DNA of 64,000 nucleotides from positions 186,001-250,000 of the forward strand of contig JAPJBO010000044.1 in assembly GCA_030068145.1 (NCBI GenBank). The letters are read 5' to 3'. Source of the DNA: Diplonema papillatum (taxonomy: Eukaryota; Euglenozoa; Diplonemea; Diplonemida; Diplonemidae). The translations under genes were made by a program, and so were the position numbers. This document shows positions 22,779-48,169 of the stretch, piece after piece. A model generated the notes under the pieces. That model ran no database searches. It worked only from the letters and a program-made list of their open reading frames with translations, and was not told where the DNA came from. Each line of letters starts with the position of its first letter. Within the stretch, counting starts at the first letter, position 1.

Positions 22779-23512
22779 CTGAACATATTGATAGTCTTTG
22801 GATCAAACACAGGAACGCCTGTACGTTCTGAACGTGTTGAGTGTGTGTAGAAGTGCAAGCAAAGAACCGCTCTACGGTATCACAAAGAAACACCCACAAC
22901 TCATTCCAGGAGCAAGACGAAGGGTGGTCGGAGGATACAATGTGAACTACTGAGTAAGCATATCGACAAGGAGTGAGGGCACAGGACCATGAGAAGATCC
23001 ACCGCCGGCCGGAGGCGATCGAGTGCGCTGACGGGGCTATGCAGGGTGCAAGGCGCTGTGGAAGCGGCGAACCGGGCGGAGAAGACGGGGATCGGGACGA
23101 CGCCTACAGAGTGTCGGACGCGTGCTTCGAGGACCTGCGCGCGGCGGTTGTGGCGGGGGACGTGGAGGCGGCTGAAGGTGTACGTCGGCCGTGCGCGTCG
23201 CCGTGCACCACGCCGCCGCGAACAACAGGCACGGCGCGGTGGTCGAAATGCTGCTCTACGAGCAAGGCCCCGTGAAACAGGCTCCGACAGTTTTCAAGCG
23301 CACGAGCAAAGCATACAGAACTGTCTGTGCGTATTGAAAGTGCTTGGATCAAACACAGGTCGCCTTGTGCGCACAGAAAGTATTTAAGTAAAGTACAAGC
23401 ATGAGCCAAGTACACAAAAAAAACACCCACAACTCATACCAGGAGCAAAGCGGGGGGTCGGAGGGACACAATGTGAACTACTGAGTAAGCGCATCGACGA
23501 GGAGAGAGGACC
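22779..23512 (+). repeat. Tandem duplication covering the 5' flank and start of the ankyrin gene
   Basis: 22779-22988 and about 23290-23512 share GGATCAAACACAGG, ACACCCACAACTCAT, CCAGGAGCAA, GTGAACTACTGAGTAAGC and the ATG context. The period is about 524 bp (ATG at 22989 and 23513). The duplicated block includes the likely promoter and leader, so both copies may be transcribed. Confidence 0.88.
22989..23275 (+). pseudogene. Broken 5' copy of the ankyrin-SPRY gene
   Basis: Starts with the same coding sequence as the intact gene (MRRSTAGRRRSSALTGLCRV), but small deletions shift the frame. A larger gap removes the bases encoding most of the first ankyrin repeat. It ends at GGCCCCGTGAAACAGG instead of entering the second repeat. 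It could still be transcribed from its duplicated leader. Confidence 0.8.
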
Positions 23513-26233
23513 ATGAGACGATCCACCGCTGGCCGGAGACGGTCGAGTGCGTTGACGGGGCTATGCAGGGTGCAAGGCGCTGTGGAAGCTGCGAACCGGG
23601 CGGAGAAGGACGGGGATCGGGACGACGCCTGCAGAGTGTCGGACGCGTGCTTCGAGGACCTGCGCGTGGCGGTTGTGGCGGGGGACGTGGAGGCGGTGCG
23701 GAGGTGGCTGAAGGTGTACGGCAGCGGCGCGGCGTCGGCCGTCGACACGCACGGCTGGACAGCGCTGCACCACGCCGCCGCGAACAACAGGCACGGCGCG
23801 GTGGTCGAAATGCTGCTCCGGAGCAAGGTCCCGATCAATAGGCAGAACGACAACCGCTGGACGGCCCTCCACCTCGCAGCCTACAACTCGCACCGCCCCA
23901 CCGTAGAGCAACTCCTGCAGTGCGGCGCCGACCGATCCCTCACCGACGCCGCCGACGACACCGCAGCCGACGTCGCACACCTCTGCAACCTGCACCACAT
24001 CGCGGATTACCTCACCGTTCAGCCCCAGGACACCCCCCCTTGCCCGCCCCTTCGCTCGCCGCCGGCGTCGGGTGCCCACAAAAAGCTGCCGAAGCGCGCG
24101 AAACCGGGACCCCGCGCCCAGCCGCCGCCCCCGGAGGTGCTGCCGCAGCTGCATCTCCTAGAGCGCTGCGAAGCCGGCCGCCGCGAGGAGATAGCGCGAG
24201 AGGAGGTCGCGGCGTTCTACTGGCGGCAGCTGCCGTGCGCGCTGGCTTCCGCCGTCGCGGGGCTCGGCCGGCGGCGGCCGCCTGCGCCGCGGCCCGGGGC
24301 GGGTACCGAGCGGGTGAGGAGGGAAAGCGGGCGGCGGGGGTCCCTGAAACGCGGCGGCAGCGAGGCCGGAGCTATGCGGAGGGCCAGCAGGTCCGTCGAA
24401 GGGCTCAAACCACCGAGGAGAGGAACCGTCGTGTCGATCAGCGACCAGAGAGACGACCTGCCGCCGAAGCACGATGAGAACAACGCCGCGGCGAAGCGGC
24501 GGTCGTTCGGCTCGGTCGCAGGTACCGGGGCGCAGGGCACCTTCACAGGCGTGGAGGATGAGCGACCAAGGAGAGGCACCGCTGTGGCAATCAGTGATCA
24601 GAGGAACGCTTCGAGGCGTGATGAGAACAACACAACCATCGCGAGCGTAGAAGATGAGCGACTTAGGAGAGGCACCATCGTGTCGATCAGTGACCATAGA
24701 GACACATCGAACACGACCAACGGAAGCGTCGAGGATGAGCGACTTCGGAGAGGCGCTGTTGAGTCAATCAGTGATCATCGAGACACATCGAAGCGTGATG
24801 AGAACAACGCCGGAGCCAAGCGGCATTCATTCGGGTCCGTGGGAGGGGACGAGGTGGAGGAACCGTTCGGGAGTGAAGAGGACGAGCGGCGTAGGAGAGG
24901 CACCGTCGTGTCGATCAGCGACCATAGATATAAAGACACGTCGAAGCGTGACGAGAGAGGCCACGAGGGTCGTGCAGAAGGCGAGCGACCGAGGAGCGGC
25001 ACTCTGGCTGCAATCACCGGCCGCAGGGACGGCCCGCCGAACACCGGCGCGGGCAAGAGGAGGACGCTGCCGTCGATCGGGGGCCGGGATCCCGTCGGCG
25101 GGCGGAAGGACGAGCGGCCGAGGAAGGGCAACAGCCTGCCCCCGCCCGCCTTGGCCGAGGCCGCCGCGCGGAGTGGACAGGCCGGTCAGCCACCAACCAG
25201 AGGAGGCACCGTGTCTCCTGCAGGGTACGATGGTCGAAGGGACACGCTGAACAGCAGCGCGGCGGACCGTTTGCAGCAGCGGGGCGCAATCCCGGCGGCG
25301 GGAACCGAAGGCGAAAGGAACAGACTGGTCCGAAAAGGGAGCGTAGCCCCAATGGGCGGCCGGAGAGACATGTTGAAGGACCACCAACCGACGAGGGCGG
25401 CGATCGGCGACGACGGCGAATTGAACAGGCCGGGCGGGAAAGGGAGTGAAGCTCCCACGCAGGACCACGCGAAAAACTTCGCAGACGAGAACGAGGGAAG
25501 TGACCCGTTCAGAAGACTGAGCGGAGCGACCGCGGACGGTCGACGGGAAACGAGTGACCGACGGACGTTGGCGCCGGTCACCGTTGAAGACGAAAGGACC
25601 AATTCGTCAAGGCCCGCGGCGGCACGAGACGGCGGCCGAAGGGGCTCGCTGGAGAGCCAGGCCCACCGGGCGGTCGGTACCGTGGCCGACCTCCCGGAAT
25701 CCCTGCGCAGCTTCGCGCGGAGCGCGCTGCAGAAGGCGTGCGAAGCGTCGCGGCTGTACGCGTGCAGCGCCACGCTTCCCTTGCAGCCGACGGCCTCACG
25801 GTCGTTCCTTTCGACTCCGCGTTGCAGCCAAGGGGCCGCGGGCCTCGAGCCGGTGACCCCGTCTGCTTTCATGCAGGACAACAGACTCTCCCAAAGCCAG
25901 CGCTCCGATATGGCCGAGGTGCAGTCCGTCGCCAGCCCCGCCTACCACCCGGGTTGCTACGTGTACCACCTCGACGACTGCACGTGCAACGCCGCGTGCC
26001 TGCAGGCCGACGCCGGTCCGAAGGGCGGGGCTTCCGCACCGGCAGCGCCGCCCGGTCTGCACGGGCGGCTGGCCGTGCTGTCGCCCACTAGCAGCGGCGC
26101 AGGGGACTCCGCCTCCGACTGGCTGAACCCGGGGAGCCCCGTGCGGAACAGGGCGCCATCGTTCCTGGGCGACTTTGGGCCGCTGCCGCAGGGACCGGTC
26201 TCCCCGGCAGCTTTGCGCAGCCTGCTGCTCGAG
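23513..26233 (+). CDS. Ankyrin-SPRY protein, exon 1
   Basis: ATG at 23513 (MRRSTAGRRRSSALTGLCRV). Residues about 45-170 hold three ankyrin-type repeats with the diagnostic GWTALHHAAANNRHGAVVEM and WTALHLAAYNSH cores. Ankyrin repeats bind partner proteins. From about 300 to 625 a degenerate repeat recurs, built on RRGTVVSISD and RDTSKRDENN, basic and Ser-rich, probably disordered and phosphorylated. The rest is Pro/Ser/Gly-rich with a Cys cluster (YHLDDCTCNAACLQ). The exon ends LRSLLLE|GTTTGT in phase 0. The following exon is in phase and supplies a SPRY domain. No catalytic motif was found. A cytosolic scaffold or adaptor role is inferred. Confidence 0.85.
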
Positions 26234-26286
26234 GTTTGTGTCCACCTGTCATTTGCCCCGGGAGTTCTGTCGCCGGGGGGAAAGCG

Positions 26287-26411
26287 GTTTAGCCACATGC
26301 AATGTGTGAGGAAACTGAACCGCCCAAGTAGGACCTTCTGATCGTGATCATTCGCCAAATTTCCCCCCTGAAACCACGTCCAGGATTTGGGCTCAGGGTA
26401 GTGCTGTCAAC
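26287..26411 (+). repeat. RepD copy in the ankyrin-SPRY intron
   Basis: Near-identical to 19166-19286 from TTTAGCCACATGCAATGTGT to CTCAGGGTAGTGCTGTCAACG. Confidence 0.9.
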
Positions 26412-26420
26412 GAGAAAGCA

Positions 26421-26608
26421 GCACCTGCTTTTTAGGAAATGCTTGAGGAGACTGCCAGTTGCGATAGATCAAAGGAGGTAAATGTGCTGTAGCCCAGACG
26501 AAACACAGGCGTAAGCGTTCAACAAAAAAGACCCACTTTGTAGTTGTATTGTTTTCTCCCCCTCTAGCCTCCTTCGAAATGAGCACAAGGCAGTCCCTCG
26601 AGTGTTTT
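26421..26608 (+). repeat. RepB copy in the ankyrin-SPRY intron
   Basis: Starts GCACCTGCTTTTTAGGAAAT and ends CCTCGAGTGTTTT. It is missing the GTAAATCTGGGTTTAGTGG segment. Confidence 0.88.
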
Positions 26609-26919
26609 CTTGGGGGGGAGGGGGATTTTCGCATCAACAATTCATTGTAAAAAAACTCGAAGCCGAACGCTGGTAGCTTGTTTGATGTTCACGCAGTAAC
26701 AGGCAAGCTTCCCCCAGCACGTACAAGCATACATTGCGCGGCGTATTATTTTCCAACGTTGCGTGCGCAAATAAGTGCTGCACTGTACTGTGGCTTTCTT
26801 ACTATTGTACTGAGTTGCACTCTGGCTGTGATGTGACTTTCTTGCTGTGCTGTTATATGGTGCCTTCGTTCTGTGCTGACTGATGTGCGACGGTTGTGCT
26901 GTGACTTTTCTGTTGACAG
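26609..26919. other. Remainder of the ankyrin-SPRY intron
   Basis: About 310 bp. A block at 26780-26910 is rich in short imperfect TGTGCTG and GACTTTCTTG/TGACTTTTCTG motifs and leads into the acceptor TTCTGTTGACAG. No other feature. Confidence 0.5.
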
Positions 26920-27990
26920 ACATCCAGAAAGAGGATGACCTGTCATCAGGATTCGAGAATCTGCCTCGGGAAGAAAGTCCTTGAGCAGTTCCATTGGCGA
27001 AGCAAAATCTCCCCAAACAAACAGGGCGGATCTCCCTTTTGCGCCCCGTCGCTCTCCTGTTGGAACTGCTGCGGCCAGCTCAGCGGCACGGCTGCCGGCT
27101 GCACGCCGGCTGAGCCGTATCAGGTGCCCCAGCTCGTGATGGTCCAGCCGACGGTCTTGCTGGAGGCCCCCGGGCTCGCGTCCGTCCCGCTGAAGGGAAA
27201 CGAGGAGAAGACGTCGGTAGAATGCTCCGGCCATTCGCAGCACGCGTGCACTACCGTTGTTTGCGACCCGGTGATGCACGGAGACGATGTCGGTGGCGAG
27301 GTGGCCTACGGGTTCGAGATGTCGATTGATGTCGGGGGTGTGGCTTCGGCGCAGGGGAAGTATATAACCGTAGGGTTGGTCGACGACGAGTGGTGGCAAG
27401 AGGTTCCGGCCCACGAGGCGGCCAGCAGGTACTTGGGCGGCTTGCACTCCATCGGGTGGTGGAGCGGCACCCAGGTCATCACGGGCATGAACAAACGCCA
27501 GGCCACCCGCCTGGTGCAGCCCGAGGACCGGTTCCTGTCGTTCACGCAGGGAGACTGCATCGGCATGCTGGTCGACGGCTGCAACCGCGAGCTGGTGTTC
27601 TTTGTGAACCGGAAGCTCGCCAGCGTGGTCCGGCTTCCCGCGGTCCTGGGGCGCAAGCCAGTGCGCGTCGCAGTCTCGCTCCACGGCGATTCGAAAGTGT
27701 CGTTCAAGCAGACGCTGCAGACGGCGCCAGCGTCCCTCCGGTCGCTTGCGCGGGAGCGTGAAAAGTGGTACTTGTGCTGGGTGCACACCCGGCAGCGTTT
27801 CGAGACCGAGAAGATCGAGCAAGCCCGTCTTATGGCTCAAAATGGGGTCCTCCTGGCCGCAGCGCCGGTGCCGCGGATCGTCCGCACGCCGGTGCAGAAT
27901 AGCCGGAACGTGTCCGCCGGGGCCGGCAACAAGAGTGTCATCCGGCTTGCGGTCGAAGTACCAGAAACCATCTGCGACCAGCCGACCTAG
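26920..27990 (+). CDS. Ankyrin-SPRY protein, terminal exon with SPRY domain
   Basis: The acceptor TTGACAG joins exon 1 in phase 0. After a Cys-rich lead (CAPSLSCWNCCGQLSG) the SPRY/B30.2-like fold follows. It has FEMSIDVGGVASAQGKYITV, then LHSIGWWSGTQV, then GDCIGMLVDGCNRELVFFVN with RKLASVV and LGRKPVRVAVSLHGDSKVSF. The 'GD.IG..D...FF.N' pattern is the SPRY core strand set. SPRY domains bind short peptides in partner proteins. The frame ends at TAG 27988 after VPETICDQPT. The 3' half of this exon is repeated three more times downstream in decayed form. Confidence 0.85.
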   Translation, partial: TSRKRMTCHQDSRICLGKKVLEQFHWRSKISPNKQGGSPFCAPSLSCWNCCGQLSGTAAGCTPAEPYQVPQLVMVQPTVLLEAPGLASVPLKGNEEKTSVECSGHSQHACTTVVCDPVMHGDDVGGEVAYGFEMSIDVGGVASAQGKYITVGLVDDEWWQEVPAHEAASRYLGGLHSIGWWSGTQVITGMNKRQATRLVQPEDRFLSFTQGDCIGMLVDGCNRELVFFVNRKLASVVRLPAVLGRKPVRVAVSLHGDSKVSFKQTLQTAPASLRSLAREREKWYLCWVHTRQRFETEKIEQARLMAQNGVLLAAAPVPRIVRTPVQNSRNVSAGAGNKSVIRLAVEVPETICDQPT

Positions 27991-28036
27991 CCCCATGGGT
28001 TCTCTCCCGACGGTCGGTTCTTTGTTGCACACGCAG

Positions 28037-28461
28037 GGAGACTGCATCGGCATGCTGGTCGACGGCTGCAACCGCGAGCTGGTGTTCTTTGTGAACCGGA
28101 AGCTCGCCAGCGTGGTCCGGCTTCCCGCGGTCCTGGGGCGAAAGCCGGTGCGCGTCGCAGTCTCGCTCCACGGCGATTCGAAAGTGTCTTCAAGCAGACG
28201 CTGCAGACGGCGCCGGCGTCCCTCCGGTCGAGCGTGAAAAGTGGTACTTGTGCTGGGTGCACGCCCGGCAGCGTTTTGAGACCGAGAAGATCGAGCAAGC
28301 CCGTCTTCCGGCTCAAAATGGGCTCCTCCGCAGCGCCGGTGCCGCGGATCGTCCGCACGCCGGTGCAGAATAGCCGGAACGTGTCCGCCGGGGCCGGCAA
28401 CAAGAGTGTCATCCGGCTTGCGGTCGAAGTACCAGAAACCATCTGCGACCAGCCGACCTAG
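28037..28461 (+). pseudogene. SPRY exon, decayed copy 2
   Basis: Repeats the exon from GGAGACTGCATCGGCATGCT to GACCAGCCGACCTAG. A deletion after GATTCGAAAGTGT and others at about 28228 and 28325 break the frame. An acceptor-like CACACGCAG precedes it as in the true exon (TTCACGCAG). Confidence 0.88.
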
Positions 28462-28507
28462 CCCCATGGGTTCCCTCCCGACGGTCGGTTGTTTGTCGTA
28501 CACGCAG

Positions 28508-28948
28508 GGTGACTGCATCGGCATGCTGGTCGACGGCTGTAACCGCGAGCTGGTGTTCTTTGTGAACCGGAAGCTCGCCAGCGTGGTCCGGCTTCCCGCG
28601 GTCCTGGGGCGAAAGCCAGTGCGCATCGCAGTCTCGCTCCACGGCGATTCGTAAGTGTCGTTCAAGCAGACGCTGCAGACGGCGCCAGCGTCCCTCCGGT
28701 CGCTTGCGCGGGAGCGTGGAAAGTGGTACTTGTGCTGGGTGCACGCCCGGCAGCGTTTTGAGACCGAGAAGATCGAGCAAGCCCGGCTTCCGGCTCAAAA
28801 TGGGGTCCTCCTGGCCGCAGCGCCGGTGCCGCGGATCGTCCGCACGCCGGTGCAGAATAGCTGGAACGTGTCCGCCGAGGGCGGCAACAAGAGTGTCATC
28901 CGGCTTGCGGTCGAAGTACCAGAAACCATCTGCGACCAGCCGACCTAG
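28508..28948 (+). pseudogene. SPRY exon, decayed copy 3
   Basis: Same unit. The change GATTCGAAAG to GATTCGTAAG creates an in-frame TAA inside the SPRY core. The rest remains about as long as copy 1 and ends with the same CCAGCCGACCTAG. Confidence 0.88.
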
Positions 28949-28994
28949 CCCCATGGGTTCCCTCCCGACGGTCGGTTCTTCGTTGCACACGCAG

Positions 28995-29363
28995 GGAGAC
29001 TGCATCGGCATGCTGGTCGACGGCTGCAACCGCGAGCTGGTGTTCTTTGTGAACCGGAAGCTCGCCAGCGTGGTGTCGTTCAAGCAGACGCTGCAGACGG
29101 CGCCGGCGTCCCTCCGGTCGCTTGCGCGGGAGCGTGAAAAGTGGTACTTGTGCTGGGTGCACGCCCGGCAGCGTTTTGAGACCGAGAAGATCGAGCAAGC
29201 CCGTCTTCCGGTTCAAAATGGGTTCTTCCTGGCCGCGGCGCCGGTGCCGCGAATTGGCCGCACGCCGGTGCAGATTAGCCGGAACGTGTCCGCCGGGGCC
29301 GACAGGAGTGCCGACCGGCTTGCGGTCGAAGTACCAGAAACCATCTGCGACCAGCCGACCTAG
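28995..29363 (+). pseudogene. SPRY exon, decayed copy 4
   Basis: Same unit, with about 75 bp removed between CGCCAGCGTGGT and GTCGTTCAAG. It reads open through the junction as NRKLASVVSFKQTLQT and on to DQPT before TAG. Spacing between copies is 487, 471 and 487 bp. Confidence 0.88.
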
Positions 29364-29404
29364 CCCCATGGTTTCTCTCCCGAGGGTGGTCCAGGTAGCC
29401 GTTT

Positions 29405-29790
29405 TCCAACGACGCTGCCGCGGGACTGCTTGGGGAGGCCTTGCCCATTCATAACGAAGAATTTTAGACCCTGTTGTTCCTCGCTTCAGTGGTTTGGGTA
29501 TGACCCCCGAGCCCCGGAGAGACTGCCCCCGCGAAGCTGCCGCGAGACTGCGTGAGGGGGCCTTGCCCACGTTCTTAACGAAGAAGTCTAGATAGTGTTT
29601 CTCGCTTTCAGTGGTTTGGGTATGACCCCCGAACCCCGGAGAGACGGCCCCGCGAAGCTGCCGCGAGATTGCGCGGGGAGACCTTGCCCACGTTCTTAAC
29701 GAAGAATTGTGGACACTGTTGTTTCTCGCATTCAGTGGTTTGGGTATGACCCCCCGGAGACTGCCCCCGCGAAGCTGCCGGGCTCTCTGG
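29405..29790 (+). repeat. Tandem repeat of about 120 bp, three-plus copies
   Basis: Each unit has GAAGCTGCCGCGAGA, CCTTGCCCACGTTCTTAACG and TCAGTGGTTTGGGTATGACC. It begins just after the last SPRY copy. Confidence 0.9.
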
Positions 29791-29953
29791 GGCTGACCTC
29801 CAGCTCCGGCCAGCCCCGGGCCAGCCTCCACACTGCCTAAGTACGCATTCCTCTGTGGGCAGTAGCTCATATCCGATGTGCCTTGGGTGCTCACGCATTC
29901 CCCCTGTCTGGGTTCTGTGTCGTAGAAATGGGTCACAAAGAGCAATGAGCAAC

Positions 29954-30105
29954 TCCCTCAGAAAAGCCGGCCCACATCAAGGCTTCGAAAGGCCAGTCCC
30001 CTCAGACAAGTCGGCCCACAACAAGGCTTCTAAAGGCCAGTCTCCTCAGAAAAGTCGGCCCGCATCAAGGCTTCTGAAGGCCACTTCCCTCAGGAAAGTC
30101 CTCCA
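29954..30105 (+). repeat. 44-bp tandem repeat, about 3.5 copies
   Basis: Unit CCCTCAGAAAAGTCGGCCCA followed by CATCAAGGCTTCTAAAGGCCAGT. Copies start at 29954 and 29998 and continue to 30105. Confidence 0.9.
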
Positions 30106-30300: not shown

Positions 30301-30306
30301 CTCTCA

Positions 30307-33513: not shown

Positions 33514-33703
33514 TTTTTGTAGAAGCACCTGCTTTGTAGGAAATACTGGGGAGACTGCCAGTTGCGAAATCTCAAAGGCATAGTGTGGTACCATCGGCAT
33601 GCCGATGACTCCCCACTATCGCAACAATATAACAAGATCAAAGGAGGTATATGTGCTGTAGCCCACACGAAACGCAGGTAAATCTGGGTTTAGTGGCGGG
33701 CGA
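33514..33703 (+). repeat. RepB copy in the LRR intron, right end missing
   Basis: Carries the CATCGGCATGCCGATGACTC insert subfamily mark and breaks off after TTTAGTGGCGGGCG. Confidence 0.85.
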
Positions 33704-33953: not shown

Positions 33954-34037
33954 ATTCACTCATGGGTTTGGCTTTTGCGCAGTGTCCTGTTTTTAGTAAA
34001 GAGCTGCGACTCAACTACTCCCACCACACCCTCGCAG

Positions 34038-34887
34038 AGGCTGGAGATCGATCGCGAATTGTCTGGTGAAGAACCAGAGCCTCCTTTCCCTGAACATCGC
34101 GGGCAACTGCATCGGAGGCGCGTCAGATCCCGAGCACCCGGAGCTGCGGGAAATCGGCGGGAAGACGATCGGGACCGTGCTGCGCGAGAACCACACGCTG
34201 CAAGAGCTGAACTTCGCGTCCTGCGGCCTCGGCGTGGCGGCCGTGGTGGGGCTCGCCCAGGCTTTGATCGGTCACCCGTCCGTGGTAACCCTCAACATCG
34301 CGTCGCTGCTGGTGAACAACCTGCAAGACCGGCTCTCAGTCGCGCAGCACCTCAGCGAAATGCTCCGGAAGAACGGCACGCTCGTCCAGCTGAATCTCAA
34401 CCGGTGTTTGATATCCGACGAGCTGCTTTCGATCATGCTGCCGGCGTTCGTCTTTAACGAAGGGCTGACCTCCATCCTCCTAAGCGCGAACAAGCTCAGC
34501 CAGGACGGGGCGGGAGAGCTCGCGAAACTGCTCCTGCGCAGGCACGACCTAAGCGTCGTCGACATCTCGTCGAACAACATCTCCTCCGCCGGGGCCGCGG
34601 CCATCGCCGCGACGTTGAAGACGAACCACGGTATATGCTCGCTCAACCTTTCGTACTGCGGCGTCGGCGAAGACGGCCTCGTGGCCGTGATGGAGGGCCT
34701 GCGGCAGAACACGTCGATCTCGACGCTGCTGCTCTGGGGCAACCACTGGACGCCCAAGGCTTGCCAGTTCTTCTACGCGCACCGCGCCCGCCTGAGCGAG
34801 CTTCTGTTCTTCGACTGCGAATTCCAAGTCGTCGATGGGTTCCCAAATGTCGTCCTGCACGAAGAAGGCGGTATCCGCAGTGCGTGA
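34038..34887 (+). CDS. Leucine-rich-repeat protein, exon 2
   Basis: CCCTCGCAG precedes. With one leading base the frame reads GWRSIANCLVKNQSLLSLNI and continues through at least seven LRR units, such as HTLQELNFASCGLGVAAVVG, HDLSVVDISSNNISSAGAAA and GICSLNLSYCGVGEDGLVAV. The C-terminal cap is CEFQVVDGFPNVVLHEEGG and the frame stops at TGA 34885. The two downstream partial copies continue instead RSVNLE after the equivalent point, so a one-base change near 34880 may have shortened this protein slightly. The total is about 390 residues, normal for an LRR adaptor. Confidence 0.87.
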
Positions 34888-34924
34888 ACTTGGAACGCTG
34901 AATTGTAGCTTAGCCTTCACCCGC

Positions 34925-35085
34925 CTGAGCGCGAACTCAGAGTTCTTCAGTCGGCTTGCCAGTTTGTCTCACACCAGCTTCCGTTCTTCAACTGCGAGTT
35001 TCAAATCATCGACTGGTTCCCAAATGTCGTCCTGCACGACGAAGGCGACGTTCGCAGCGTGAACTTGGAGTGGTGAGTCGCGGCT
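34925..35085 (+). pseudogene. Degenerate copy 2 of the LRR gene 3' end
   Basis: Repeats FFNCEFQIIDWFPNVVLHDE-GDVRSVNLEW against FFDCEFQVVDGFPNVVLHEE in the gene. Upstream, GAGTTCTTCAGTCGGCTTGC links it to the third copy. Confidence 0.8.
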
Positions 35086-35114
35086 GTTGTTGCCGTCTTA
35101 GCCTTCGCCTTCTT

Positions 35115-35300
35115 GGCAGCGTGAGTTCAGAGTTCTTCAGTAGGCTTACCAGTTTGTCTGCCGCCACTTCGACTGCAAGTTTTGAAGTCGTCGAGCTGGT
35201 TGGTTTCCAAGTGTCGTCCAGCACGAAGGAAGCAGCGTGCGTGGTGAGGACGGCTTCGGGAAGCTTCGGGAAAGGTATGCTGGAAAAGCTGAACATGAAC
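35115..35300 (+). pseudogene. Degenerate copy 3 of the LRR gene 3' end
   Basis: GAGTTCTTCAGTAGGCTTAC and CACTTCGACTGCAAGTTTTG match copy 2, with more indels and in-frame stops. Confidence 0.7.
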
Positions 35301-36291
35301 CGGTGCTCGATGTATCGGAGACGAACAGCGCTCGCGGTCATGCCTTTCGCATCCACCTGATGTGTGCTACAGTGCCGCATTCTGGAGGGAACGGCGCACG
35401 TGTGCGCCACCATAGCACATGTGCACGCATGGTCCACTTCGTGCACATGTTCTGGCCCCCACAATGGCCCTAGAAGTGTCCGTATCGGTATCAATAGCAA
35501 CGTCCGGCTGTCGTCCAGTTGAGTCGGTCGAATACACACTGTTAAAAACACGAAAACGTGGAATGAACCGCGGAGGTGGTTCTCTGTCGTCGGGCTACCT
35601 TTATGGTACCGGGAAAGCCGTGTTCGGCGAAACTGAAGCGTCACGGGTGTCAAGTGGCTACCGATTGCCGTACCTGATAGGCCGTGGTGCAACGTGGTAC
35701 GCCATGTTAGACAGTGGCAGGCACTGAGGTGTGGACCGGCTTGGCTTTGCATCACTCTGGGCACGCTGATTTGTTCACAGTAGCACATCGACCAGTATGC
35801 GTACGGAAGAAAACGCAACCACGCCTGCTATTTGGAGCTACACGGGCTCACCTTGCTTCTCTCCTGAGTGCCTCCCCTCCCCATCTGTGCATAACCCGGC
35901 GGACGAGGCGACCAGCCAAGGCATATGAGCCTTCTGTTGTTGTTCCTTTTCCCCTTCAAACGTACGTATTCTCGGCGTACCCCAAATCAAGCTATACCGA
36001 TTGCGGAAAGCGGCTTCTCACGGAGAGAGGCCCGGGTAGAGCATCTTCTGGCACCGGAACTCGGTGCGATAGCTTCGGTACACCGTGAATCGAATAAGCA
36101 GGGCTAACCCCAAAACACCGCAACAATTCATGTTACAGGCGAACAAGAAGACTTCCTCTTCTTCGTTAGTAATGTGGCACGCACTACTCCCTAGAGAGAA
36201 AGTGTCCATCGTAGCGTGTCGTCATCCTGTGAGTCCTCTGAGTGGTGCCCAACTTTGATCCACCCGAAAAGGCTGAGAGGGTGCATGACAG
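35301..36291. other. Intergenic, no gene supported
   Basis: Open frames exist on both strands, including a long minus-strand one (35006-35818) that crosses the LRR relics. None has family features or splice support. A plus-strand frame at 35464-35727 (MALEVSVSVSIATSG) is the least unlikely. Confidence 0.4.
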
Positions 36292-37430
36292 CTCTGTATA
36301 TACCCCCAGGCAGTTGATTGTACTGACTTGGTGCTTTATCAGAGCCAGATTTCGAAGTCCAGTGTCTCCCTGTCCTATCACGAGTCACTAGAGGATAGAT
36401 TGTATGGCTGTCGTATCACGATTCGCAGTCAGCTCTGTATATACCCCCAGGCAGTTGATTGTACTGACTTGGTGCTTTATCAGAGCCAGATTTCGAAGTC
36501 CAGTGTCTCCCTGTCCTATCACGAGTCACTAGAGGATAGATTGTATGGCTGTCGTATCACGATTCGCAGTCAGCTCTGTATATACCCCCAGGCAGTTGAT
36601 AGTACTGATTTGGTGCTTTATCAGAGCCAGATTTCGTAGTCCAGTGCCTCGCTGTCCTGGTGCTTTATCAAAGCCAGATTTCGTAGTTCAGGGGTTCGGT
36701 TTCGTATCACGAGTCACTAGAGGATCGATTGTATGGCTGTCGTATCACGATTCGCAGTCAGCTCATACGCAAGCAGTTGATTGTACTGACTTGCTTTACC
36801 AGAGCCAGATTTCGTAGTCCAGTGTCTCGCTGTCCTGGTGCTTTATCAGAGCCAGATTTCGTAGTTCAGGGTTTCGCTGTCGTATCACGAGTCACTAGAG
36901 GATAGATTGTATGGCTGTCGTATCACGATTCGCAGTCAGCTCTGTATATACCCCCTGGCAGTTGATAGTACTGACTTGGTGCTTTATCAGAGCCAGATTT
37001 CGTAGTCCAGTGTCTCGCTGTCCTGGTGCTTTATCAGAGCCAGATTTCGTAGTTCAGGGTTTCGCTGTCGTATCACGAGTCACTAGAGGATAGATTGTAT
37101 GGCTGTCGTATCACGATTCGCAGTCAGCTCTGTATATACCCCCTGGCAGTTGATAGTACTGACTTGGTGCTTTATCAGAGCCAGATTTCGTAGTCCAGTG
37201 TCTCGCTGTCCTGGTGCTTTATCAGAGCCAGATTTCGTAGTTCAGGGTTTCGCTGTCGTATCACGAGTCACTAGAGGATAGATTGTATGGCTGTCGTATC
37301 ACGATTCGCAGTCAGCTCTGTATATACCCCCAGGCAGTTGATAGTACTGACTTGGTGCTTTATCAGAGCCAGATTAGTGTCTCGCTGTCCTGGTGCTTTA
37401 TCAGAGCCAGATTTCGTAGTCCAGGCCACC
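36292..37430 (+). repeat. Satellite with 141-bp units passing into 188-bp higher-order units
   Basis: CTCTGTATATACCCCC recurs at 36292, 36433 and 36574 (period 141), then at 36940, 37128 and 37316 (period 188). The longer unit contains a second, partly duplicated GGTGCTTTATCAGAGCCAG segment. The array ends 110 bp before the start codon of the coiled-coil gene. Confidence 0.95.
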
Positions 37431-40500: not shown

Positions 40501-41023
40501 GCTGAAGAAGATCGCCGCTGAGATAGGGGCGCGCCCCCCCGCCGCCGTCCGGTACACCCCCGTGCCTGTCGACGATCTCCGGTTGGACGCGCCGGCCGGG
40601 TGGTTCCCAGACGCGTTGCTCCCTATCGAGCTGCTCGTGAAGGCGGCGCACTGGGACCCTGCGACCAACCTGCCGTCGGCGTCGTCCTCTGTATCCGCGC
40701 CGCCGCCGCCGCCGCCTTGGACGGAGCCGGTCTCCGTCGCCAGCAGCCAGCGCGACCCGAGCGGCATGCGGAGCACCGAGGGGTCCCCCTCCGTGCTTGC
40801 CCAGTCGCCGAAGCCGCGTGAGGACACGACCGCGCACGAACTCATCGACTTGGAGGGCCTCCCGCCGCAGCATGCGACCCCAGGGGCCTACGGCGAGCGG
40901 GGCTGGTCCGTCCCCCAGCCGCGGATCACCGTCGACGACCCGCTGCGGTCCGACGTGCCGTCGTCGCCGCGATCGGGTTCGAAGAAGGAGAAGAAGAAGA
41001 AGAAGAAGCTGCCCGACGGGTAC
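37541..41023 (+). CDS. Large coiled-coil protein with PH/TH1-like domain, exon 1
   Basis: First ATG at 37541 (MYGGVGRGASVTSRMNEILR). Residues 1-165 are Ser/Pro/Arg-rich with repeated SP sites (SPRTSPQVSPRYSPHNSPKP). From about 170 to 670 the sequence is a long heptad coiled coil. Residues 673-785 form a Gln/Leu block built from QQQRQL and HEQQLAVQQ repeats. A Pro/Ser linker follows. At 865-997 a compact domain shows RPLLVTDRALYILDAS, VVLRCIPLDDVATVHVGPQD and FDLLLELCG, which resembles the PH-like TH1 fold of myosin-I tails and similar lipid-binding modules; this is pattern resemblance only. Lys-rich KKEKKKKKK lies near the end. The donor is TAC|GTGAGC, phase 0. Probably a cytoskeletal or flagellar scaffold (inference). 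Confidence 0.9.
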
Positions 41024-41185
41024 GTGAGCGCCACCATTGCGCTGTTCCGACCGAACGTATGCAATACCCCAGCGTACGTATTGTTGACACGTGTCGACAC
41101 AAGGCCTTTCTTCCGGCAGTCTTCACCAGCTTCGGCTGACACCAATTGTGCACTTAACGTTGCTCCATCCATGATTTAGTCTTCA

Positions 41186-41277
41186 CCAAACAAAAAAGAC
41201 CCAGTTTGTAGTTGTATTGTTTTCTCCCCCTGTCTAGCCTCCTTCGAAATGAGCACACGGCAGCCCCTCGAGTATTT
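41186..41277 (+). repeat. RepB 3' half in intron 1 of the coiled-coil gene
   Basis: CAAAAAAGACCCAGTTTGTA ... CCTCGAGTATTTCC. Exon 2 begins 15 bp after its right terminus, so the element supplies part of the branch/polypyrimidine region. Confidence 0.85.
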
Positions 41278-41292
41278 CCAACGACTTCACAG

Positions 41293-41445
41293 ATGAAACC
41301 GGTGTTTGACACCATCGACTTCGACTGCTCGTTTAAACCGGCTTACTTTGCTGAGAACCTCCTCAACTACCTGTCGAGTCCCAACTCGCTAGGGCTTGAG
41401 CTCGGCGCCCGTGAGCAGTACGATTTGCACTTGGCGCCTGTCGGG
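41293..41445 (+). CDS. Coiled-coil protein, exon 2
   Basis: TTCACAG precedes and GTATGC follows; 51 codons, phase 0 at both ends. It reads MKPVFDTIDFDCSFKPAYFA then ENLLNYLSSPNSLGLELG and ends LHLAPVG. The in-phase junctions on both sides support it strongly. It may complete the preceding PH/TH1-like region or start a new domain. Confidence 0.75.
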
Positions 41446-41533
41446 GTATGCCCATTGCATTTCTGTTCTTGCCTTCGTCCCACCTGCAGTGTGTTCTCAA
41501 CAGTCATAGTTGCCGCGCCGATCTTTTTGGGAG

Positions 41534-41920
41534 AAATCTGAGCCAATTCACCAATCTCCCCAAAAACCCATGCTCGAGTACGCTCGATCTTTCGCTCGAA
41601 TACGCTCGATTACATTGGTGCTGGTTCTTCCGGAAGCAGCACAGGACGAAGTTGAACGCACGCAGCAGTCGAAGGAGACGCGAAGCACCAAGCGCGCCTG
41701 AGCGTGACGATCAAGACGAGCTGAAGAGGCGAATCCGGGGGGGGTTGCGGAATGTTCACGCATTCCCTTTCGGCAATCCTGCACGTCCGAGCAAGCTCGT
41801 CAGTGGCAGCTTTAAGGCGAGCAATTACACCTTGCCTTAGGACCGAGCTTGAAACATTGCGTAAGAGATAACCGCGACGCCGGCGATGCAGATTATCGCC
41901 ACAGGTTCTTTGTATTATAT
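41534..41920 (+). repeat. RepG-like element in intron 2
   Basis: GAGCCAATTCACCAATCTCC, then clustered GCTCGATTAC/CTCGAATACG units, and further down GATGCAGATTATCGCCACAG. It is longer than 30409-30583 and carries extra sequence between the two landmarks. Confidence 0.6.
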
Positions 41921-42067
41921 TCCAAACTACAACGCTCAATCGGGCAGGGGGTGAATTTGCTCGAGAGAGCGCGCTCGCGTGGATTGCCCGAGTTTTTAAT
42001 GTGCGACCTCCACGTTGATCCATTCTGAGACGTGCATAAGGCATACGTTGCTCTATTTCTCCCACAG

Positions 42068-42181
42068 GTTTCCGCCGCGAAGCTTGTGCGGCACGAGCTG
42101 CACGAGGTTCTATCGGCGCGGACTCTGCTGCAGGGCGACGAGAAGCCTATCAAGCAGATCATGAAGGAGCAGCATCGCGAG
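42068..42181 (+). CDS. Coiled-coil protein, exon 3
   Basis: TCTCCCACAG precedes and GTATGT follows; 38 codons, phase 0 at both ends. It reads VSAAKLVRHELHEVLSARTL then LQGDEKPIKQIMKEQHRE, amphipathic helix. It continues directly from exon 2. The frame is still open at the donor, so at least one more exon must exist downstream; none was placed with confidence. Confidence 0.75.
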
Positions 42182-42451
42182 GTATGTCTTCGCAACCCGC
42201 TGTTTTTAGTGCGAACAATCAGTGTGCGCGCGATCAGCCGGCTTGCCGGCTGATTAAATTTCGAGCCCTTTTTTTACCGGCAGATTCGCAAAAAATCAGC
42301 CGATTTTCAACAGTGTAAGCTTTTGCTATGCCGCCCATGGAGATATCAGCTTGACGCACCAGCAAGCTGTTGTCGTAAAACCCTTCTGATCGGCAGACCT
42401 TCCAAAAAATCAACCGGCTGATTATCAGCCGGTCAGTTTTTCAAGATTTTT

Positions 42452-42668
42452 TTGTATACGCACCTGCTTTGTAGGAAATGCTTGAGGAGACTGCCAGTTG
42501 CGACAGATCAAAGGAGGTAAATGTGCTGTAGCCCACACGAAGCACAGGTAAATCTGGGTTTAGTGGCGTGCGTAAGCGTTCAACAAAAAAGACCCACTTT
42601 GTAGTTGTATTGTTTTCTCCCCCTCTAGCCTCCTTCGAAATGAGCACAAGGCAGTCCCTCGAGTATTT
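42452..42668 (+). repeat. RepB copy, full length
   Basis: GTATACGCACCTGCTTTGTA ... CCTCGAGTATTTTTC. One of the least diverged copies in the window. Confidence 0.9.
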
Positions 42669-42675
42669 TTCTTTT

Positions 42676-42840
42676 GTCAATGCATTGTGAGGTAGGCAGC
42701 GGGTTTTGGTGGTTGATCAGAATTGTCAATGCATCGTGAGGTAGGCAGCGGGTTTTGGTGGTTGATCAGAATTGTCAATACAAGAGGGAGAACGACCAAC
42801 CGGCACGCACAAACAAAACGAAGCGCCTGTCTTCGTCTAG
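42676..42840 (+). repeat. RepF copy with a duplicated 5' part
   Basis: GTCAATGCATTGTGAGGTAG ... GTTGATCAGAATT occurs twice in tandem (about 42676 and 42725), then GGCACGCACAAACAAAACGA. It abuts the RepB right end. Confidence 0.82.
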
Positions 42841-44939
42841 CGCGTGCTGGCAGACGCACAATGTTTACTTGATCTCTGGCACCCACTTTCCGATGCCAAA
42901 TACATGCATCCTAACACTGAGAGAGGGCTCGTGTTTGAACATTTGAAGAGCGGGGGGAGGGGGTGTTTTTCTGTGTGCGAGCACATCTCACCTGACATAT
43001 TTTTCATGTCAAATGCGTTCGATTGGAATGTGGTGTCCAGGCCGACTCAGGTGCGCTGTTGCAAAGAATTGCCCACACCACAGATCGGAAAGGGAGCAGA
43101 GTACCTCGTTTTCGGGGTCGTTCACAGAGAGCTCTTGGACTGATGTACGCGCAGCCTGCTCCGACGCTCCGAAATGTGCACTAGAAAATGTGTGTTATTG
43201 ACCCGCCGTAGCCAAGGCTGAGTCTCCAGTAGGTAGGTCCCGATGCGCTTCCATGCGGCGGCACGCCACATGGAAGCCCGGCGTGTCTTGGAAACCGGGC
43301 CGTCAACCATTGCGTGGTCGTAGAGGGCGAGGAACCTCGCCTTCTACGTTCGCCTGTGCGTACCACCATGGGTTTCATCGCCCCTGGCAACCATACCCGC
43401 TGGAATACGATACTACAGTGTATCGTGCAGCGCCTGCTGAAAAGACGTAGACACCGTCTTTGGGTCGTTGCCACGGCCCGCAGCGAGCCACCCGGCGAAA
43501 CATGTGTGGGATGGGTATACGGTGCAGTTTGCGAAGAGTGATCGTAGTACCTCCTGTGGCACCAGTCTCCGTTTGCTCCGTTTGTAGGGCCTGCTGTCAC
43601 TGCACCAGCCGGTAGCGCTCTCATGGTGTCGGTGTCGTACTGTGGCATCCGCTTACTTGCTCGTGGAAGTGCGGCACTTCCGCCCGTCGGTCTCAAAGGC
43701 AGGCCCTCGTCGCATCAGACCGGGCAATCGGCGCTGCAACGACCAACAGTAAAGCATCCCCCCTCCCCCCTCCTCTCTCCCTGTCTCCATAGCAATTCTC
43801 TCTAGAAGCCCCCCGTTGTGTTTTGCCTTGCCAGGCCGTTGTCTTTTTTCTTTTCTGTACGTTGTCAACCCATAGTACTCCTTAGAATGCAGTTGTTTCT
43901 TTTTCTTTTCTTTTTGGAACCCGATGAGATTTCGGACAGTCGACCCCGTTCTCAAGCTGTCAAGGGGTTGAGGCTGGCATGTGCGTAGAAATGAAATGGA
44001 ACGGGCATTCAGGCAATGCCGGCTTCTCTGTTTCCTGACTCATGCTCCACCTGTACAAAGGTTGCGCGGGGTTTCTCGTCTCGTGCTATTGTCTCACTGT
44101 CTTATCTTTTCGGCCCCCCCTTCCTATGTATATGTATCCTTCTGTTGAGTATATCGTTCCCTCTTGGCTTGCCGAAAATACGCAAGGAGGTCGCCTGTTG
44201 CGAAAGCACAAAGCAGAAGGCTGCGCTTACTACTCCTGGTGCGGAAGCGGAAACGTTTCGCATGCCACCTTCCGGGAGGGCTGGCACGTGTGCTCGGCAG
44301 CACTTCGCCCAAGTGCCTTCTCCAATCTGGCCCAGTTTTAACGCTGAGATACGGCAGCATTCCCTCCGTTTGGCCTTTGGAAAAATAAGGAAAAACGGGC
44401 AAATTTGTTTATCCTCAGTTGTGCGCCGACCATGAGACCCGAGTTCAAGCCCCGCTCTGGAAACTTTTCGAAAACTTTCGGCCCGAATTTTCCCGAGTCC
44501 TTGTAGGGCCCAAGTTATTGTATTATTAGACTAAGACTCCAAGCTGGGTCGGTGGGTTGATTTAGTTTGCAGCCAGTAGTGTCGTAAAAATGGGGTGTAC
44601 CTAGAGGCAGTCGTGTGCTCGCAATGTCGGGAGAGAGCTATTCGACAAGCCATGCTGTGGAGTATTCCCCTTCGCTGTCCCTCATGAAGCTGACCTTGGC
44701 AACGTCGCCTGTTCCGCGATGGAGGACAGCGGCGGCTCCTGCGATTCGTCGAGGAAGTTCCACCAACGGAGGCTCAACACCCTATACCAGGTTTCGTCTG
44801 AGCTGCCAAGTGGAATCCTCTTGAAGACCTGCTCAAGAACAAGGCCGACTTGGCTCCGGGGCAAGGGCGCTGCAGTCAACCGTGGCGTGCAATGCAGTAG
44901 ATGGTATCGACACTTCGATGAGTATACCCGTATAGGACA
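42841..44939. other. Presumed 3' region of the coiled-coil gene and intergenic sequence
   Basis: No exon was assigned. Two candidates were seen. One is an open segment before CAG|GTGCGC at 43050 (HISPDIFFMSNAFDWNVV). The other is a 110-codon open stretch at 43200-43541 (VNHCVVVEGEEPRLLRSPVR, MGFIAPGNHTRWNTILQC). Neither has a clear acceptor in the right phase. A RepB-like trace lies near 44180-44225. Confidence 0.35.
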
Positions 44940-45020
44940 CCTACAAAGGAATCCTTTCGGCAATGGTCACCCGGAGACAACAAAACCCCGGATCCTCAAG
45001 CACACTTCCACTCTCAAAAT
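44940..45020 (+). repeat. RepA 3' end ahead of Cys-rich exon copy 1
   Basis: CAATGGTCACCCGGAGACAA ... CTCAAGCACACTTCCACTCT ends directly at the start codon context AAAATG. Confidence 0.8.
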
Positions 45021-45235
45021 GTGCCCACGGCTCTGTGCCTGGATGTGTGCTTTGGCGCTACCGGCGGTGGCCACCATCAGCTCGGTGCCTCCGGGACACC
45101 CGCGCCGTGCGCGGCGGAGCCGTGTTTTTTCGACTGCGGCGACTGCGACCAGAGCGCGGCGGGCTGCGCGAATTCGAGCTGGGTGTGCCTCGCTGCGGAC
45201 TGCGCGCTCGACTGTTCCGGGCGGACGGCCTCCTA
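45019..45235 (+). pseudogene. Cys-rich gene, exon-1 copy 1 (degenerate)
   Basis: Starts MCPRLCAWMCALALPAV like the intact gene, then loses frame. The downstream CFDCGDCDQS, then CANSSWVCLAADCALDCSGR, are readable in another frame. It ends in TCCTAAAACCCCGGAATTTC, the RepA junction shared by all truncated copies. Part of the Cys stretch is deleted. Confidence 0.85.
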
Positions 45236-45377
45236 AAACCCCGGAATTTCAAGCGAACTTTAACTTTAAAAAGGCAACAGCGACACACAAAAACACGCCC
45301 TATCACAGATACGATAAGACAACGGCCACCCGGAGACTTTAAAACCCTGGATCTCCAAGCAAGCTTTCACTCAAAAA

Positions 45378-45671
45378 ATGCGTCCGCTGCTCTGTGCCTG
45401 GATGTGGATGTGTGCTTTGGCACTGCAGGCAGCGGCCAACTCATTAAGCACCCGGGCGCCGGAAAAGGATGCCCCCGGGACACCCGCGCCGTGCGCGGCG
45501 GAGCCGTGTTTTTTTGACTGCGGCGACTGTGACCAGAGCGGGGCGAGCTGCGCGCTGAACGCGAGCGCGTGCGCGGTGGCGTGCGGCGGCGAGGCGGGCT
45601 GCGCGAATTCGAGCTGGGTGTGCCTCGCTGCGGACTGCGCGCTCGACTGTTCCGGGCGGGCGGCCTCCTAA
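45378..45671 (+). CDS. Truncated Cys-rich exon copy 2, intact 97-codon frame
   Basis: ATG follows RepA (TTTCACTCAAAAA). MRPLLCAWMWMCALALQAAA is a signal peptide. The mature part has the same Cys spacing as the full gene (CFDCGDCDQSGASC, ACAVACGGEAGC, CLAADCALDCSGR) and ends AAS followed by TAA, where a RepA fragment joins. If expressed it would be a small secreted Cys-rich protein. It could equally be a non-functional by-product of tandem duplication; no disabling change is visible. Confidence 0.55.
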   Translation: MRPLLCAWMWMCALALQAAANSLSTRAPEKDAPGTPAPCAAEPCFFDCGDCDQSGASCALNASACAVACGGEAGCANSSWVCLAADCALDCSGRAAS

Positions 45672-45840
45672 AACCCCGGAATTTCAAGCGAACTTTAACT
45701 TTAAAAAGGCAACAGCGACACACAAAAACACGCCCTATCACAGATACGATAAGCATACACACCTAGAAAGGAACCCTGTCGACAATGGCCACCCGGAGAC
45801 TTTAAAACCCTGGATCTCCAAGCAAGCTTTCACTCAAAAA

Positions 45841-46134
45841 ATGCGTCCGCTGCTCTGTGCCTGGATGTGGATGTGTGCTTTGGCACTGCAGGCAGCGGCC
45901 AACTCATTAAGCACCCGGGCGCCGGAAACGGATGCCCCCGGGACACCCGCGCCGTGTGCGGCGGAGCCGTGTTTTTTCGACTGCGGCGACTGTGACCAGA
46001 GCGGGGCGAGCTGCGCGCTGAACGCGAGCGCGTGCGCGGTGGCGTGCGGCGGCGAGGCGGGCTGCGCGAATTCGAGCTGGGTGTGCCTCGCTGCGGACTG
46101 CGCGCTCGACTGTTCCGGGCGGACGGCCTCCTAA
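45841..46134 (+). CDS. Truncated Cys-rich exon copy 3, intact 97-codon frame
   Basis: Same structure as copy 2 (463 bp upstream) with a few substitutions; frame and all cysteines kept. It ends GRTAS then TAA at the RepA junction. The second intact short copy makes chance retention somewhat less likely, although recent duplication could also explain it. Confidence 0.55.
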   Translation: MRPLLCAWMWMCALALQAAANSLSTRAPETDAPGTPAPCAAEPCFFDCGDCDQSGASCALNASACAVACGGEAGCANSSWVCLAADCALDCSGRTAS

Positions 46135-46275
46135 GACCCCGGAATTTCAAGCGAACTTTAACTTTAAAAAGGCAACAGCGACACACAAAAACACGCCCTA
46201 TCACAGATACGATAAGACAATGGCCACCCGGAGACTTTAAAACCCTGGATCTCCAAGCAAGCTTTCACTCAAAAA

Positions 46276-46568
46276 ATGCGTCCGCTGCTCTGTGCCTGGA
46301 TGTGGATGTGTGCTTTGGCACTGTAGGCAGCGGCCAACTCATTAAGCACCCAGGCGCCGGAAACGGATGCCCCCGGGACACCCGCGCCGTGCGCGGCGGA
46401 GCCGTGTTTTTTTGACTGCGGCGACTGTGACCAGAGCGGGGCGAGCTGCGCGCTGAACGCGAGCGCGTGCGCGGTGGCGTGCGGCGGCGAGGCGGGCTGC
46501 GCGAATTCGAGCTGGGTGTGCCTCGCTGCGGACTGCGCGCTCGACTGTTCCGGGCGGGCGGCCTCCTA
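46276..46568 (+). pseudogene. Cys-rich exon copy 4 with premature stop
   Basis: Identical in layout to copies 2 and 3, but CTGCAGGCAG has become CTGTAGGCAG, placing TAG at codon 17 inside the signal peptide. The rest of the frame is undamaged. Copies 2-3 and 4-5 have the same long/short spacer pattern, so the pair was probably duplicated as a dimer of about 898 bp. Confidence 0.88.
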
Positions 46569-46738
46569 AAACCCCGGAATTTCAAGCGAACTTTAACTTT
46601 AAAAAGGCAACAGCGACACACAAAAACACGCCCTATCACAGATACGATAAGCATACACACCTAGAAAGGAACCCTGTCGACAATGGCCACCCGGAGACTT
46701 TAAAACCCTGGATCTCCAAGCAAGCTTTCACTCAAAAA

Positions 46739-48169
46739 ATGCGTCCGCTGCTCTGTGCCTGGATGTGGATGTGTGCTTCGGCACTGCAGGCAGCGGCCAA
46801 CTCATTAAGCACCCAGGCGCCGGAAACGGATGCCCCCGGGACACCCGCGCCGTGCGCGGCGGAGCCGTGTTTTTTTGACTGCGGCGACTGTGACCAGAGC
46901 GGGGCGAGCTGCGCGCTGAACGCGAGCGCGTGCGCGGTGGCGTGCGGCGGCGAGGCGGGCTGCGCGAATTCGAGCTGGGTGTGCCTCGCTGCGGACTGCG
47001 CGCTCGACTGTTCCGGGCGGGCGGCCTGCGCCTCGGCCGGGCGGCCGCTTGCCGCCGGATACGGCTTGTACTGCGGCAACGGCACGAAGACGTGTGCGGT
47101 CGCCTGCACCGGGAACCAGTCGTGCGCGCGAGCCGGCGACCGGTCGTACTGCGGCGCCTCGGAAGTGTGCTCCTTCGACTGTTCGGGGAGCGAAGCCTGC
47201 GCTGGGTTCCGAGCGGTTTGCGGCGCCGGCGCGAGCTGCCGGTTGGATTGCGCGGCGCCCGGGGCGTGTGCAGGGGTTGCCCTCGACGCCGCCGACGCGG
47301 GTTCTGCACGGGTGGAGTGCACGTCGCCGCTGGCGTGTGCGAACGGCACCGTCCGCTGCCCTGCCGTTGCGTCTAACTGTACGGTGGCGTGCTCCGGGTC
47401 GCAGGCATGTCGCGGGCTCACTGTCGTCTGCCCGCCGTCTCGCGTTTGCTCCGTCGAATGCCGCGGCGACGCCGCTTGCGGGGAGATGACGCTGCACGGC
47501 AGCGTTACCGTAGTTGTCCCCGGAGCTCCCGGTTTGCCGGTGGCGCAGACCGTCGTGTCGTTCGGGCGCGCGCGCGTGTTTTCGCTCCGCCTCGCGGCGC
47601 CTGCGGCGGCCGCTGCCGCCCCCGGCTTCCAGGCCGGGCTGCTGTCCGCCGTCGTCGCCTGCCTCCGCGCCGCCGGCGCAGACGTCGGGAGCGGCGCCGC
47701 CTACTGGATCTGTCCCGCCGCTGTCTGCAGCCCGTCGTGCCCCTACCACCTGGAGGACAAGCTGCGGGCGGGCTGCTCCCCCGGCTCGTCGTCCGTCGTC
47801 ACACCGTCCGACCTATCCATCCTTACCCCCCCTGCGAGCAACGGCAGCGGATGCGAGGTTGAGGTAGACCTGCGGACCGCCGACGGCGAGCTGCCAGACA
47901 CCACGGGGCGGCGGCGGATCATTTCAACCGTGCAGGACGAGGTGCTGAAGGGCGCCCGCTCTCCGCTGCACGAATTCGCCTTCGTGTCAGTGTTCGAAAC
48001 GACGTCGGAGGTGAGGCGGTACGTGGAAGCTGTCGAGGACGCGTCGTCCCAGGGCAAAGGATGGGCAACCTCTCTCTCCGTGCTGGTGGTGGCCGGGGTC
48101 GCATGCATAGCCAGCTGCGCGTGTTACTGCAAGCGCATCCGGTACGCGAAGGTTTTCACGGACTCGCAG
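46739..48169 (+). CDS. Cys-rich type I membrane protein 1, main exon
   Basis: ATG at 46739 follows a RepA leader. Signal peptide 1-21 (MRPLLCAWMWMCASALQAAA). Residues 30-265 hold about a dozen C-x3-C and C-x5-C modules such as CFDCGDCDQSGASC, CYGLYCGNGTKTC-like YGLYCGNGTKTCAVACTGN and CSVECRGDAACGEM. A Cys-poorer membrane-proximal domain (about 290-440) contains YWICPAAVCSPSCPY and is shared with the gene at 53271. A membrane segment (about 442-462, SLSVLVVAGVACIASCACYC) precedes a basic tail (KRIRYAKVF). The donor TCGCAG|GTGCGG leaves phase 0, so a short tail exon should follow; it was not found. Extracellular adhesion or recognition is inferred from architecture only. Confidence 0.87.

Follow-up and report, generated by a model that had tools for sequence, protein, structure and literature searches.

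Partial tandem copies at gene ends in Diplonema papillatum: frequency, geometry and a probable duplication-based explanation

Four tandem arrays in a 64,000-base stretch of the Diplonema papillatum genome, G000:C44:186001-250000 (hereafter the window, meaning the whole stretch analyzed), each repeat one end of a gene beside the gene itself. This arrangement raises the question of whether some process in this organism preferentially copies gene ends or whether tandem duplication in general can produce it. We found that such partial copies occur at other genes across the genome (271.4 Mb in 2,910 contigs; labels such as C411 denote contigs), and we saw no excess of arrays at gene ends when 264 nominal ends of Ras and cyclophilin genes were compared with 100 kb of unselected DNA. 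Frequent short tandem duplications, some of them enlarged later by unequal exchange, quite probably explain the gene-end arrays without any machinery devoted to gene ends.

Arrays at gene ends in the window

The arrays were located by self-alignment and direct-repeat searches of the window. A preliminary description of this DNA had reported end arrays in ankyrin, SPRY, leucine-rich repeat (LRR) and Cys-rich coding sequences, with 2, 4, 3 and 5 copies, respectively, and we recovered all four with these copy numbers. The best off-diagonal scores (445, 1640, 150 and 2315 bits in the same order) are far above the maxima from 100 dinucleotide shuffles of each (27, 28, 25 and 33 bits). The arrays had also been assigned to four separate genes, and here the number is three or four, as an intron may join the ankyrin open frame to the SPRY exon within a single gene. 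The parts of the arrays and their host genes are as follows.

22786..23272, plus strand: outer copy of the ankyrin 5' end, comprising upstream flank and the beginning of the coding sequence and degraded by indels; 79% identity with 23332-23833 in an alignment of 528 columns
23332..23833, plus strand: inner copy of the ankyrin 5' end, running on into the ankyrin open frame (self-alignment, open frame)
23489..26341, plus strand: ankyrin-repeat open frame of 950 codons (Pfam Ank_2, E 6.9e-15)
26917..27990, plus strand: SPRY-like exon, open frame (SPRY E 0.0039, below the Pfam cut-off)
27520..28005, plus strand: intact inner copy of the 3' end of the SPRY exon, which includes the stop codon and about 15 flanking bases (self-alignment, junction)
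28006..29387, plus strand: three outer copies of the SPRY 3' end, starting at 28006, about 28478 and 28964, 93-97% identical to the intact copy
34000..34887, plus strand: LRR exon, the last coding exon seen (open frame, domain match)
34799..35228, plus strand: array of the LRR 3' end, with the stop in the inner copy (34799-34975) and outer copies from 34976 and 35167, 73-77% identity
44937..45231, plus strand: outermost and most diverged copy of the Cys-rich 5' exon, 70-77% identity
45318..46564, plus strand: three more truncated copies of the Cys-rich 5' exon, with starts at 45378, 45841 and 46276 (self-alignment)
46657..48190, plus strand: inner copy of the Cys-rich 5' exon, leading into the remainder of the gene, ATG at 46739, 483 codons (open frame)

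The earlier statement that one copy per array is intact and the rest are decayed or truncated holds for the attached inner copy, but not for every other copy. Among the outer SPRY copies, copy 2 carries a frameshift and copy 3 a stop, while copy 4 is open despite a 69-base deletion; in the Cys-rich array, copies 2 and 3 keep frames of 97 codons and copy 4 has a stop. The three outer SPRY copies differ from the intact exon at 3/3/4, 5/5/5 and 5/7/5 sites in codon positions 1/2/3, and this evenness makes them look like neutral debris. The five Cys-rich copies begin near 44937, 45318, 45759, 46216 and 46657, and the inner ones are about 99% identical to each other. Their spacing alternates between 463 and 435 bases, with a period of 898 bases, which suggests that the array grew by a dimer through exchange of several units at once.

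Counting repeats with a shift of at least 100 bases, so that shorter periods enter through their multiples, we found 15 tandem arrays and a (GA)n run in the window. Four of the arrays lie at gene ends, nine in noncoding DNA and two inside coding sequence. The gene-end arrays, here and at other loci, span a range of ages, with copy identities from about 70% to 99%. The window was chosen because of its gene-end arrays, and its count of them is thus a selected sample. An array with periods of 141 and 188 bases (36289-37425) lies directly upstream of a coiled-coil gene and is possibly a 5'-flank array without coding sequence.

Frequency of arrayed ends and their geometry

We surveyed the Ras and cyclophilin families, which have short genes and were chosen without regard to repeats, by genome-wide searches at the protein level. 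The Ras search gave 109 matches at 80 loci, of which three (C738, C137 and C292) carry partial tandem end copies; for cyclophilin, 75 matches fell at 52 loci, five of them with such copies (C304, C1278, C301, C221 and C1430). All eight were confirmed as DNA-level repeats that extend past the domain. Loci with overlapping matches were left out of the count (C262 and C569 for Ras, C61 and C129 for cyclophilin, with an overlap of 26-27 residues). We rejected three further candidates: Ras C348 has two whole domains in one frame, Ras C1847 is a whole-gene array of eight Ras-like matches at a spacing of about 1.3 kb, and cyclophilin C71 is a whole-gene array of four genes spaced 2.2-2.6 kb apart. 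A SPRY family search, kept out of the rate, gave 33 matches, among them two partial matches on C1249 that lie 437 bases apart.

Taken together, the two families have 264 nominal gene ends, of which 8 carry arrays (3.0%; 95% interval, 1.3-5.9%), or 10 (3.8%; 1.8-6.9%) when the 5' ends of C738 and C301, visible only in the fetched DNA, are added. The cases divide into four 5' and four 3' ends in the match tables and into six and four, respectively, with the fetched DNA. For comparison, we took ten 10-kb stretches (100 kb) that were not chosen for repeats, eight of them random (the first 8 of 180 drawn) and two flanking the window. They hold 16 arrays with a shift of at least 100 bases, and their density at shifts of at least 170 bases predicts that 2.7% (without one satellite) to 5.5% (with it) of ends should lie inside arrays. 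This comparison uses array density alone, as the simple coding model is too weak for annotating random stretches. The observed rate of arrayed ends matches that of unselected DNA and is therefore no higher than tandem duplication in general would give. The proposal in the preliminary description of a genome-wide process is borne out as far as duplication itself goes, which appears at 8 of 132 loci in two unselected families, but the counts call for no process directed at gene ends.

The copies also obey a simple rule of side. At all eight family ends in the match tables, and at all ten when the fetched DNA is included, the partial copy lies on the outer side of the gene and lacks the inner part of it. 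The four window arrays and those at C411 and C255 follow the same rule. The coding 5' region is tandemly repeated upstream of the gene in the ankyrin, Cys-rich, C411, C304, C1278, C137, C292 and C738 cases, and the 3' end is repeated in the SPRY, LRR, C301, C221, C1430 and C738 cases. This is the arrangement expected when the duplicated segment spans from outside to inside a gene, which yields a truncated copy followed by the gene at a 5' end and the gene followed by a truncated copy at a 3' end. Since the gene survives, such duplications persist.

These features would fit the following course of events. Short tandem duplications would arise constantly in coding and noncoding DNA alike, with units of about 0.18-0.85 kb in the gene-end cases seen here, and would start where short homologies allow end joining or template switching. 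If one breakpoint falls within a gene and the second beyond it, the product would be the complete gene with a truncated copy of its end on the outer side. The surviving gene would leave the extra copy free to decay, so that old arrays fade, while repeated unequal exchange between copies would enlarge some arrays. A duplication with both breakpoints in coding sequence would as a rule disrupt the gene and, unless it keeps the frame, be lost by selection. We infer the initiation at short homologies, the expansion by unequal exchange and the selective loss of internal duplications from the arrays as they now stand.

Three junctions are clean enough to bear on initiation. At the SPRY junction, CCCGACGG, both parental breakpoints share the 7 bases CCCGAGG, and two junctions at C48 have 1 and 3-6 shared bases. 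Such short homology suggests end joining or template switching, though three junctions are few. Replication slippage or template switching had been put forward for these arrays, and of this proposal template switching, or else end joining, fits the clean junctions. The general mechanism of microhomology-mediated tandem duplication with unequal crossing over resembles what we see in the direct orientation of the copies, the short junction homologies and the signs of multi-unit growth; it differs in that many junctions here carry extra sequence.

Further examples came from loci picked because a dispersed element like a short interspersed element (SINE) recurs there: C411, C255, C199 and C275, and then C48, C40 and C14. 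Gene 5'-end arrays are present at C411 and C255, and an array at C199 extends into the beginning of an exon. Two arrays lie at C48, where the gene is guessed from one open frame; we found no gene-end array at C275, and C40 and C14 were rejected as arrays because they hold element pairs only. At C411, 11 truncated copies accompany one that is attached to a fatty-acid hydroxylase (PF04116, E 3.3e-20). The order of units in this array, with three of 627 bases between units of 676 bases, suggests that several units were exchanged at a later stage.

Weighing the alternatives

Several points weigh against our reading. The 170-base limit was fixed after we had seen the gene-end arrays, whose shifts are about 177 or more, and with a 100-base limit the expected proportion of ends inside arrays is 8.9%; the expected rate is also based on just 6 or 7 arrays. 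Arrays with little of the domain escape the family count, in which inverted copies would also go uncounted because matches were grouped by strand; within the eight fetched family loci, inverted repeats are present at C292 only, as three pairs. Just three junctions were clean enough to read, and many others carry extra sequence between copies. In the window, 4 of 15 arrays lie on gene ends, whereas random placement would put 1.4 there if five host genes are assumed (P 0.02-0.04) and 2.0 if two more genes are included (P 0.08-0.12), both figures depending on our own rough gene models. In addition, two of the eight confirmed family genes (C738 and C301), and perhaps the ankyrin-SPRY gene, have both ends duplicated, which hints at hot loci. 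Together, the window excess, the double-ended genes and the extra junction sequence suggest that some loci are hot spots or that the events were more complex. The same window excess and double-ended genes, along with the weight on 5' regions in a published description of repeat-bounded genes (PMC10161547, in the part that presents them), would favor a process directed at gene ends, for example through breaks tied to trans-splicing or polycistronic transcription, that preferentially copies first and last exons. We consider such a process unlikely, given that the unselected families show 3.0-3.8% arrayed ends against 2.7-5.5% expected and that their 5' and 3' cases are similar in number.

A different origin would be seeding by the SINE-like element, a presumptive retroposon whose insertion would leave a very long target-site duplication, so that gene-end copies flank the element and the whole unit is then amplified. 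The element, which ends in ..CACTCTAAAAA, lies in the window at the following positions.

10137-10419, SINE-like repeat
16257-16344, minus strand, SINE-like repeat
16899-17018, SINE-like repeat
44874-46744, SINE-like repeat
45233..45275, and again at 45668, 46131 and 46566, plus strand: last 43 bases of the repeat at Cys-rich copy junctions (nhmmer)
50779-51079, SINE-like repeat
57597-57681, SINE-like repeat

Profile searches found it in the Cys-rich, C411, C199, C255, C48 and C1278 arrays. It occupies all 11 copy junctions at C411, with no match in the 1.2 kb before the outermost copy, and its 43-base tail occurs in all four junctions of the Cys-rich array. Yet the Cys-rich units also carry a second, longer copy just before each ATG (nhmmer), and this includes the outermost unit (44874-45022); C411 and three other loci had been picked for the recurrence of the element in any case. 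With the Cys-rich array as a positive control, no match was found at the ankyrin, SPRY or LRR arrays or at seven of the eight family loci, the eighth being C1278. Stretches chosen without regard to the element contain 13 loci of it, of which 2 touch arrays; since arrays make up 13% of bases there, this shows no association, and we regard seeding by the element as very unlikely. Inserted gene fragments or retrocopies would not be confined to the outer side of a gene. Both this placement, in a count that grouped matches by strand and left out some loci with overlapping matches, and the reach of the copies past the domain into flanking DNA speak against retroposed gene fragments, whereas an A11 run behind the truncated copy at C255 would fit them. 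An assembly in which repeats were collapsed or falsely expanded is an extremely improbable source: some contigs do look redundant (the two Ras matches on C527 recur on C2510 with equal scores and equal spacing), but the copies in most arrays are set apart by fixed substitutions and indels, and PacBio reads pass through one such array according to the published account of it (PMC10161547).

The truncated copies might instead be retained because they are expressed as short proteins. All 11 truncated copies at C411 share one frame and stop, with the ATG retained in 10; the Cys-rich frames of 97 codons and the open SPRY copy 4 point the same way, and polycistronic transcription with trans-splicing could express copies that have no promoter of their own. 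Against this, the C411 copies vary at 5 codons and all the differences are nonsynonymous, the SPRY copies resemble neutral sequence, a stop interrupts one Cys-rich copy, and the published array, as described in that report, is not in mature mRNA (PMC10161547). Recent expansion alone would explain the open frames, and we saw no sign of selection on copies in the SPRY, C411 or Cys-rich comparisons. Retention through expression thus seems highly improbable, and gene birth from such copies, which the preliminary description had raised, is possible yet unsupported. A more speculative idea, which we hold to be unlikely, is that some loci are duplication hot spots where both ends of a gene are copied repeatedly and that truncated 5' copies with their own acceptor could be trans-spliced at once, forming a nursery of short secreted or membrane proteins; its products could include the Cys-rich frames of 97 codons and, at C411, the N-terminal frames of the fatty-acid hydroxylase. 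Short tandem duplications with later unequal exchange would account for the same arrays by geometry and by tolerance of the extra copies.

Published repeat-bounded genes and neighboring features

Gene-end arrays in this kind of organism are already known. Valach et al. (2023; PMC10161547), in the part of their paper on manual curation, describe "repeat-bounded gene structures" in "dozens of gene models" of D. papillatum, with long-read support for one array, DIPPA_19968; the passages on these genes state neither a mechanism nor a rate. The phrase "repeat-bounded gene" was absent from the other literature that we searched. As presented there, the published genes resemble ours in the tandem 5' coding region upstream of the gene, in an example unit of about 400 bp and in an outermost copy that is the most diverged. 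They differ in that the 3' cases described are first exons, whereas the SPRY and LRR cases here look like last exons. To the dozens of models in that description, our analysis adds a count of 8 of 132 loci in two families and a comparison with unselected stretches.

There is thus a measurable rate of about 6% of loci in two families (8/132; 95% interval, 2.7-11.6%), which, were Ras and cyclophilin typical, would scale to roughly 850-3,700 genes in a total of about 32,000. Such a rate is of use for diplonemid annotation, where these arrays lead gene predictors astray, and with it partial gene duplication can be quantified in these abundant marine protists. It also illustrates that geometry and tolerance alone can yield a striking pattern at gene ends.

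Spliced-leader-tagged retrogenes of dinoflagellates are similar in being extra gene copies in a trans-splicing genome. They are retrocopies made from RNA, in contrast to the arrays here, which are local and direct and include flanking DNA. One limited search of the retrogene literature turned up reports for dinoflagellates and, among the papers listed, none for diplonemids. The 3' end of the diplonemid spliced leader, as an 18-base query, gave 635 matches in the genome and none in a reversed control; GT comes next in 384 of them and not in 251. Genes here are arranged in one direction, which likewise agrees with D. papillatum. Some of these matches may be spliced-leader-tagged retrocopies. A leader-like stretch also lies about 110 bases before an ATG at locus L048 (1430-1700).

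Copies of the SINE-like repeat on a given contig tend to share a strand. The first 100 listed of the 753 exact core matches form 95 loci once arrays are collapsed, and 50 of 55 neighboring pairs on a contig in this set have the same strand (binomial p ~1e-10, taking the pairs as independent). This recalls the oriented retroposons of trypanosomatid polycistrons.

A second dispersed repeat, often in apparent introns, occurs in the window at 26421-26608, 33530-33702, 41179-41278, 42460-42669 and 49901-50107 and was found beside the C199 and C255 arrays as well. The window also contains the following features.

1-2358, plus strand: open frame of a reverse transcriptase element (RVT_1, E 1.1e-13)
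5084-7750, minus strand: open frame of a hAT-type transposase (E 6.6e-05)
18480-18609, minus strand: 130-base fragment of eukaryotic 18S rRNA (86 bits), the sole Rfam match in the window

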